Assembly: GCA_017436255.1 (NCBI GenBank) | Contig: JAFSDK010000016.1 | Span: 1 to 48,714, forward strand | DNA: 48,714 nt | Direction: 5' to 3' | DNA from: Clostridia bacterium | Lineage (GTDB): Bacteria > Bacillota > Clostridia > Oscillospirales > Acutalibacteraceae | Shown here: positions 16,783-17,104 of the stretch, piece after piece | How positions within the stretch are numbered: the stretch's first letter is position 1 | Layout of the letters: each line of letters starts with the position of its first letter | Made by a program: the position numbers and the translations under genes | Notes under the pieces: generated by a model | What the model saw: only the letters and a program-made list of their open reading frames with translations | Databases searched by the model: none | What the model was told of the DNA's origin: nothing

Positions 16783-16804
16783 TATGGAAAAGAGCAAGTT
16801 TGAA

Positions 16805-16836
16805 AGAAGTGTAGAATTTTCTGCACTTCTTTTTTA
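16805..16836 (+). terminator. terminator of the ribbon-helix-helix gene
   Basis: AGAAGTGTAG (16805-16814) pairs with CTGCACTTCT (16821-16830), with one G-U pair and a six-base loop, followed by a run of T. Confidence 0.8.
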
Positions 16837-16856
16837 TTTTAATTTTGATAAAAGAT

Positions 16857-17051
16857 AGTGATATTCTTTGCTTTGCAAAGAGTGATATTTTTGATAAATC
16901 AAAAGTGATATTAAAACCTGTGGTTTTAGTGATATTTTATTCGCCTTAAACTGCCGAAGGCAATAACACTTGTCATAAGACAAATATCACTGTGAAGCAA
17001 TATAACTCGCCGTAGGCGAATAAAACTGCCCAAGTGTTCAACACTTGGGCA
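16857..17051. repeat. array of short hairpins joined by a 9-base separator
   Basis: AGTGATATT occurs at 16857, 16881, 16904 and 16928, and its reverse complement AATATCACT at 16983. Between the direct copies lie three different perfect hairpins: CTTTGC-ttt-GCAAAG (16866-16880), TTTGAT-aa-ATCAAA (16890-16903) and AAAACC-tgt-GGTTTT (16913-16927). The second half has TGCC-gaa-GGCA (16952-16962), TTGTC-ataa-GACAA (16970-16983), TCGCC-gta-GGCGA (17007-17019) and an 11-base stem at 17027-17051. The last has TGCCCAAGTGT as its left arm and runs into CTTTTTTT. Degenerate separators such as AATATAACT lie between the later hairpins. There is no coding capacity. The final stem with its T run would also act as a terminator ahead of spoIIIAA. 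Confidence 0.8.
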
Positions 17052-17104
17052 AGGCTTGTTCTTTTTTTACTGCCTGTCTCATAGGATAGAATGGGGTTGA
17101 TAAA

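Follow-up and report, generated by a model that had tools for sequence, protein, structure and literature searches.

What keeps short hairpins perfectly paired while their stems differ and the words between them stay fixed, and to what such an array belongs, is the question raised by one locus in the window, the whole 48,714-nucleotide stretch of Clostridia bacterium DNA that was analysed. The word AGTGATATT occurs seven times in the window against 0.41 expected, a count reached in 0 of 100 shuffles. Its exact direct copies start at 16857, 16881, 16904 and 16928 and are separated by three perfect hairpins with unrelated stems (CTTTGC-, TTTGAT- and AAAACC-), and the array of exact words and perfect hairpins reported in a sequence-only reading of this DNA is therefore real. 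That reading described the left side correctly but understated the right, where an exact inverted copy at 16983-16991 is accompanied by three degenerate inverted words (AATAACACT at 16962, AATATAACT at 16999 and AATAAAACT at 17019), with hairpins between them. The right-half hairpins comprise GCC/GGC, TGTC/GACA, one of 7 nt and CGCC/GGCG, followed by a 23-nt terminal hairpin. With one exact and three degenerate inverted words on the right, the plan is one of four words and four inverted words around a centre, in which TATTCGCC and a short linker separate the left half from the inverted half. The two halves occupy 16857-17027, within the interval first assigned to the array (16857..17051), but the feature is larger, spanning about 16799-17054 between two terminator arms (Table 1). 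Both strands of 16790-17070 fold far below dinucleotide shuffles (z of -9.4 and -10.1). A hairpin of the same GTGTAGAATTTCTGCAC type as that of the left module precedes the arrays on two other contigs of this genome, C32 and C45.

Table 1. Features of the array locus in the window, with positions counted from its first letter.
Feature	Position	Strand	Remarks
Left arm of host terminator (AAAAGAGCAAG)	16788..16798	+	6 nt past the stop of the RHH-like gene
Putative inserted element, 256 bp, no cargo gene	16799..17054	+	Between the arms; in other copies the arms are sharper and there are empty sites
Left-module hairpin followed by T-run, terminator-like	16803..16832	+	14-nt arms, 93% complementary
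Left half, word-h1-word-h2-word-h3-word (AGTGATATT)	16857..16936	+	Gut-1 match on +, 33.8 bits
Left-half hairpins h1, h2, h3	16866-16880, 16890-16903, 16913-16927	+	
Centre strand A (N + TATTCGCC)	16937..16945	+	Pairs with strand B; covariation at 16937
Right half, inverted words and h4-h7	16953..17027	-	Gut-1 match on - at 16958-17028, 47.2 bits; h4/h5 covariation
Right-half hairpins h4, h5, h6, h7	16953-16961, 16971-16982, 16992-16998, 17008-17018		
Right-half inverted words (starts)	16962, 16983, 16999, 17019		
Strand B (GGCGAATA + N')	17015..17023	+	Pairs with A (16937-16945) or, via GGCG, with CGCC of h7 (17008-17011)
Terminal hairpin of right end	17028..17050	+	11-bp perfect stem
Right arm of host terminator and T-run	17055..17068	+	

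An adjacent XRE/RHH gene pair had been proposed as part of the array. The RHH-like gene lies outside the arms, since the left arm begins only after its stop, and the other copies examined have other neighbours; both genes are probably neighbours and not parts of the element. An XRE-like ORF was found within 1.5 kb of a minority of loci (one cluster of 7 ORFs), which could be chance.

Copies of the array were collected from the window's own genome and from relatives. Full arrays were present in the own genome (G000; 1.6 Mb, 74 contigs) on contigs C7 (the window), C32, C45 and C60, and no full inverted word pair was found close together in it. R1, a covariance model built from 32 sequences of the centre and right half, added contig C5 and three weak matches, giving five strong copies. 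R1 matched (E <= 1e-4) 77 of 245 genomes of the order, and a three-word pattern was found in 16 of 98 relatives, with none for the reversed control pattern among the matches listed. From 115 matches a set of 104 cores was chosen, over which counts are not independent because several copies are near-identical and strong matches were picked; the 11 omitted were mostly weak or cut (L349, L356 at 3205, L368 at 4461, L363 at 3083, L262 on the minus strand, L251 at 9908, L267, L269, L255 at 7699, L270 and L265). Many copies lie at contig ends (C45 and C60 of the own genome; contigs of G013, G082, G144 and G277), indicating that assemblies break at these repeats and that copy numbers are therefore underestimates. 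Up to 16 candidates per genome were scored for R1 and up to 18 for the Gut-1 family considered below, which caps the copy numbers. Exactly four left words were present in 79 of the 104 copies, and the terminal hairpin, variable in sequence, likewise in 79 of 104. One copy (L237, G003:C64, 4108-4228) carries additional inverted word-hairpin units, so unit number can change, and at L346, L396, L403, L414 and L417, which apart from L346 are canonical Gut-1 loci (see below), arrays are tandem or repeated at one locus. Hairpin arrays with other words (AATGATGTT/AACATCATT and AACTTCACT) were seen in the left element part of L368 (G070:C33) and in the left flank of L338, which suggests a larger superfamily of word arrays. 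A two-hairpin module (AGGGGTATGGGC..GCCC and GCATTTGTAAAACAAATGC) was observed in either orientation at L224-L231, L268, L362, L368 and L345, near the left end in cargo-less copies; elsewhere it is inverted, with a promoter-like site on one side and a cargo gene on the minus strand on the other. Another left module (CCTGCTTGTTAYGGTATGAGACAAA) stands ahead of many arrays (L027, L028, L233, L241, L253, L330 and L419), inverted in L419, where the array is a canonical Gut-1 one.

Slot by slot, the copies draw their hairpins from a common pool, for example GTGAGACAGGTCTCAC in slot 1 and TTTGATAAATCAAA in slot 2. Among distinct spacers of the 104 copies, a closing stem of at least 4 bp was kept in 40/43 (slot 1), 51/61 (slot 2) and 48/66 (slot 3), against 15, 10 and 19%, respectively, when spacer halves were swapped between copies, which upholds the earlier claim that selection acts on pairing and not on stem sequence. 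That claim had been staked on relatives having such arrays with covarying stems; arrays were found there and pairing was kept. The array is also not a CRISPR, as first stated, its words being 9 bases long and its spacers palindromic and common to several arrays. Beyond the spacers, the base after the fourth word (16937) and its partner were TA in 14, AT in 12 and CG in 6 cases, with 0 of 32 broken. Within the right half h4 and h5 covary, and the long-range stem A:B encloses this half. Where strand B instead closes the adjacent h7, 99% of cells are paired, and those four pairs hardly vary. The words of the two halves, taken as base pairs, did not covary (best z 2.3), and a ladder of four-way junctions formed by word-to-word pairing of the halves was rejected on this result.

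A relation to a described RNA family was found by comparison with Rfam. On the minus strand the right half of the window feature matched Gut-1 (RF01706) at 47.2 bits (E 1.7e-8); on the plus strand the left half scored 33.8 bits (E 4e-5). Each half aligns over positions 1-77 of the 77-nt model, and both fall short of the gathering score of 50. That score was passed by the right halves of 3 of 9 other element-bearing loci (L232, 56.1; L330, 53.6; L241, 50.3). In Gut-1 as here, three hairpins with variable stems stand between fixed words, GUGAAAU in the former and AGUGAUAU in the latter; the window word GUGAUAU is one base off the GUGAAAU-like words of RF01706. Gut-1 matches were present in 105 of 245 genomes of the order (Oscillospirales-type) and in 73 of 77 R1 carriers; among 14 control genomes, E. 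coli matched below the cut-off. The option of a structured RNA, one of those first listed for the array, thus pointed in the right direction. Gut-1 is described in the available parts of Weinberg et al. (2010) as a non-coding RNA known from human gut sequences alone and is graded there as 'certainly' RNA and not cis-regulatory; Rfam files RF01706 as an sRNA. For Gut-1 only the 2010 paper was found relevant in the open-access literature (excluding subscription papers and preprints). The best canonical Gut-1 loci have the same 4+4 inverted plan as the window, with the word (A)GTGAAAT(T) and with centres unlike that of the window (AAATCCACCC, AAATAAATCC and AAATTCGTTC). Of 23 parses of canonical loci, 19 were forward-sense, all with 10-13 nt of A:B complementarity (control mean 7.35, inflated by shared sequences) and 18 also with a local hairpin of 6-7 bp at B; the remaining 4 were reverse-strand readings. 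Since canonical loci share the inverted two-half plan, the 2010 model covers about half of the structure. The available parts of Weinberg et al. (2010) describe Gut-1 as a single-strand non-coding RNA; in the present copies it makes up half of an element that consists of two inverted halves, has a long-range stem and is placed in terminator loops.

This placement was assessed by an arm test, in which the sequence past the terminal hairpin was scored for inverted repetition against that to the left of the array, with no T-run required. A score of at least 12 was reached by 33 of 95 copies with enough flank versus 10 of 731 mismatched left/right pairs, and a score of at least 14 by 17 of 95 versus 0 of 731; a few of the 33 are not terminators. 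When 31 such arm pairs were re-scored, the right arm was followed by a T-run in 28 and the left arm preceded by an A-run in 26, and these armed copies lie between convergent genes in 20 cases and in 18 follow an upstream gene that stops no more than 17 nt from the left arm. In the window the 11-nt arms at 16788-16798 and 17055-17065 are complementary with one G-U pair, and this pair alone scores 9, which is not above control; in a sister genome (G002) the terminator is intact and its right arm is the same. For 62 of the 95 copies, a search of 420 nt gave no arm pair scoring 12 or more; some of these copies may be old, cargo-bearing or of another class. In a second class, 17 of the 104 copies end on a hairpin with an A-run and a T-run, 9 of these with a tRNA (8) or tmRNA (1) gene at most 40 nt away and pointing toward the array; canonical Gut-1 loci are mostly of this appearance.

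The boundaries were compared among six copies (L224, L225, L226, L229 and L231 of one genome and L255 of another) that are 82-96% identical over the element. In 15 pairwise alignments, 11 start no more than 7 nt from the left end and 9 end no more than 3 nt from the right end; the remainder run at most 26 nt beyond the element, and nothing else aligned in the 1.2-kb flanks. The outer stems of near-identical copies in one genome are unrelated. As in MITEs, copies are interspersed, homology stops at a defined boundary and no transposase lies inside. No consistent target duplication was seen by eye in the ends compared, where short loop bases could hide 2-3 nt. In several copies the left end resembles the inverted right terminal hairpin, as judged by eye without a control.

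Empty sites were identified for two copies of the own genome. The filled C32 site reads TAA AAAAAATTCCCAAGTC, about 1 kb with a 164-aa ORF, and GACTTGGGAATTTTT; its orthologue in the sister G002 is empty, AAAAAATCCCGAGTC-TTGT-GACTCGGGATTTTTT, with the same antiporter gene before it and the same gene downstream. The C5 site in the sister reads AAAGAGGGC-TAC-GCCCTCTTTTTT (GAGGGC-TAC-GCCCTC), a short terminator before the same transporter gene. In both comparisons the downstream genes were matched by eye, and the stems resemble each other without being identical. G002 also has an orthologue of the window site, which is filled, and 1.2 kb from it the terminator AAAAGAACAAGCC-TTTCTAGTCGG-GCTTGTTCTTTTTTT stands intact ahead of a spoIIIAA fragment. 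About 1.2 kb before this array (L240, G002:C31), the 5' fragment of spoIIIAA is fused to the 3' end of yebC through a shared short stretch, with the full spoIIIAA alongside, which is either a recombination scar or an assembly chimera of empty and filled haplotypes. The locus L345 has its target terminator twice, once filled and, 261 nt upstream, once intact. One copy was found between perfect 13-bp arms on a phage contig from IMG/VR (with terminase, portal and major head genes), whereas the window element itself gave no blastn match in plasmid and phage record collections. On another phage-like contig (L117, IMG/VR, about 1400-1600) an array runs straight out of a head-tail gene and has no arms, which is possibly an assembly chimera.

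Some copies seem, from their sequences, to carry a passenger gene. ORFs lie between a distant left arm and the array at C32 (164 aa), C5 (117 aa), L360 (221 aa) and L362 (102 aa), and further candidate cargo consists of a HAD hydrolase (L368), a methyltransferase with a 23S rRNA IVP protein (L317), and a small membrane-like ORF with a 92-aa ORF (L330). These genes are unrelated from copy to copy. The cargo of C32 and C5 is supported by the empty sites in the sister genome; for the other copies the support is an arm score between 13 and 17, and mismatched controls attain 14 in 4/150 and 12 in 6/150. A Pfam scan of nine cargo ORFs left five without a match at E <= 0.01, and the 92-aa ORF matched Imm33 weakly, under its cut-off. 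Proteins of the 23S rRNA intervening-sequence type (four-helix) were seen adjoining arrays at L263, L341, L317 and L365 (assigned by Pfam at L317 only).

If the element is mobile, its enzyme is probably supplied in trans. The 655 ORFs around the 104 cores were clustered, yielding ABC, XRE-like, 23S rRNA IVP-like and housekeeping clusters and false ORFs overlapping the arrays, with no recombinase recognised by eye; of the ORFs near the cores, Pfam covered the XRE and the nine cargo ORFs. The 104 copies had no recombinase or transposase inside or recurrently beside them and included no autonomous relative, with left flanks covered up to about 3-4 kb. Y1 transposase (PF01797) was found in 35 of 77 carriers versus 56 of 168 non-carriers (p 0.09), and in neither G211 (at least 14 copies) nor G118 (at least 13 copies). 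Reverse transcriptase was rarer in carriers (12/77 versus 56/168, p 0.004), with no RVT_1 match in the window's genome or in G233. Absence from a single genome is weak evidence, as the genomes are partly incomplete, though several carriers are 97-99% complete. As both enzymes were found in only part of the carriers, neither is a general mobiliser unless it has been lost, and both were rejected as the common one. Derivation from a group IIC intron is likewise not supported, reverse transcriptase having been found in only 12/77 carriers and no group II RNA fold having matched: at the gathering threshold, neither the window nor any of nine loci with the element matched an Rfam group II intron model.

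Taken together, the array probably forms the structured portion of a mobile, non-autonomous DNA element. Comparison shows copies situated between the two stem arms, in the apical loop of intrinsic terminators, and no target duplication is obvious. We infer movement from the copies, the homology boundaries and the empty sites, and judging from these sequence comparisons the element is very likely mobile and targeted to terminator loops; the option of an element spread by an enzyme encoded elsewhere, raised at the outset, is favoured by the arms, empty sites and homology boundaries. The window feature is best accounted for as a cargo-less copy after the RHH-like gene. Surer than the role of the array is its place in the element; recognition in movement, an RNA role and protein binding are the candidates, and its service as the recognition structure for movement is offered tentatively. 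Any recognition role of the words is guesswork, since no pairwise covariation links the words of one half to those of the other. By the proposed mechanism, an enzyme encoded elsewhere would recombine the element precisely into terminator hairpins, possibly in the form of folded single strands. The hairpin-and-word array, folded or bound, would be what this enzyme recognises, with A:B and h7 as two alternative states, and the element's own terminator-like hairpins would keep the 3' end of the host gene functional.

Each rival explanation accounts for part of these data. The words (AGTKNTATT, in both orientations) might be double-stranded sites for a regulator or transposase, like the repeated sites of Tn7-type ends: they are nearly fixed, vary alike in both halves (at the G/T and N positions) and show no pair covariation, and, as judged by eye, a -35-like box of an outward-facing promoter can directly adjoin the first. 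Double-stranded sites, however, need no perfect hairpins between them, yet most distinct spacers keep pairing, and word spacing ranges from 12 to 45 nt, which makes a protein-binding array a rather unlikely account. Somewhat less likely still is a stand-alone small RNA, in which a non-coding RNA gene, spread by gene duplication, would act in trans through its hairpins and alternative pairing. The Rfam listing and the grade given by Weinberg et al. (2010) argue for it, as do the strong covariation, the UUCG-like loops, the resemblance of A:B versus h7 to an RNA switch and the many copies that adjoin terminators; the halves are inverted, however, so that each strand bears only one half in the Gut-1 sense, and this account explains neither the precise insertion in terminator loops nor the empty sites or the cargo genes.

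Growth of the array and its outer arms in place as one structure, a terminator-associated insulator or 3'-end stabiliser resembling REP or BIME whose outer stems vary as all its stems do, would fit the copies at 3' ends, the 20 of 31 armed copies between convergent genes, the 18 upstream genes that end no more than 17 nt from the left arm and the extra terminator-like hairpins within the element. It is improbable, given near-identical copies with unrelated outer stems near which homology stops, small intact terminators at orthologous sites and cargo genes in the loop; as an origin it is largely refuted, but insulation or stabilisation could be a present benefit. Template switching perfects imperfect palindromes, and a mutational artefact of this kind at quasi-palindromes could perfect hairpins without selection. 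That account leaves unexplained the fixed words, the 4+4 plan with four left words in 79/104 copies, the long-range A:B covariation and the placement in terminator loops, and is very improbable.

The preferred reading, a mobile element in terminator loops, shares features with several known systems. Integron cassettes consist of a gene and a hairpin-forming attC site whose fold is conserved rather than its sequence. The present element, in copies with apparent cargo, likewise combines a gene with a structured site in which fold is kept over sequence, but its copies are scattered and not arrayed, insertion is in terminator loops and no integrase was seen nearby. Group IIC introns are ribozymes that need a reverse transcriptase and target intrinsic terminator hairpins, inserting next to the stem; the target is of the same kind here, whereas the position in the hairpin differs and no RVT_1 match was found in the window's genome or in G233. 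REP, BIME and REPIN sequences with TnpA-REP (RAYT) are similar in their inverted palindromic pairs, intergenic spread and possibly trans-acting Y1 enzyme, but the present element is longer, has eight words and cargo genes, and Y1 is found in only 35/77 carriers. BOX elements of Streptococcus pneumoniae (also RUP and SPRITE) are, in the available part of the source, modular, non-autonomous and highly paired, with a varying number of inner modules and an uncertain mobiliser (PMC3049150), as here; BOX modules conserve sequence, whereas here stems are replaced and words stay, and neither a terminator-loop target nor cargo genes are described in that part (PMC3049150). No terminator-loop element of this kind was found in the open-access literature (excluding subscription papers and preprints).

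These results offer an explanation for an orphan Rfam family that has been without a function since 2010: Gut-1 would be half of an inverted, apparently mobile element. Gut-1 might, though we hold this with less than even confidence, be less an RNA gene than the mark of mobile gene cassettes of a new class. These would take any small gene as cargo, use an unknown recombinase, enter terminator loops and sites beside tRNA terminators, and be recognised by a structural code (two inverted hairpin runs, in which pairing and not sequence counts, and the A:B versus h7 switch), with integron-like gene sharing in gut Oscillospirales and their phages. The pairs of empty and filled sites make the target testable at the base level, and the enzyme becomes a well-posed question, as the order offers both carriers and non-carriers for comparison. 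Integration in terminator loops would let DNA enter between genes without breaking them and, if cargo is truly carried, would amount to a way of shuttling genes, unseen by current annotation, within a dominant gut bacterial group.
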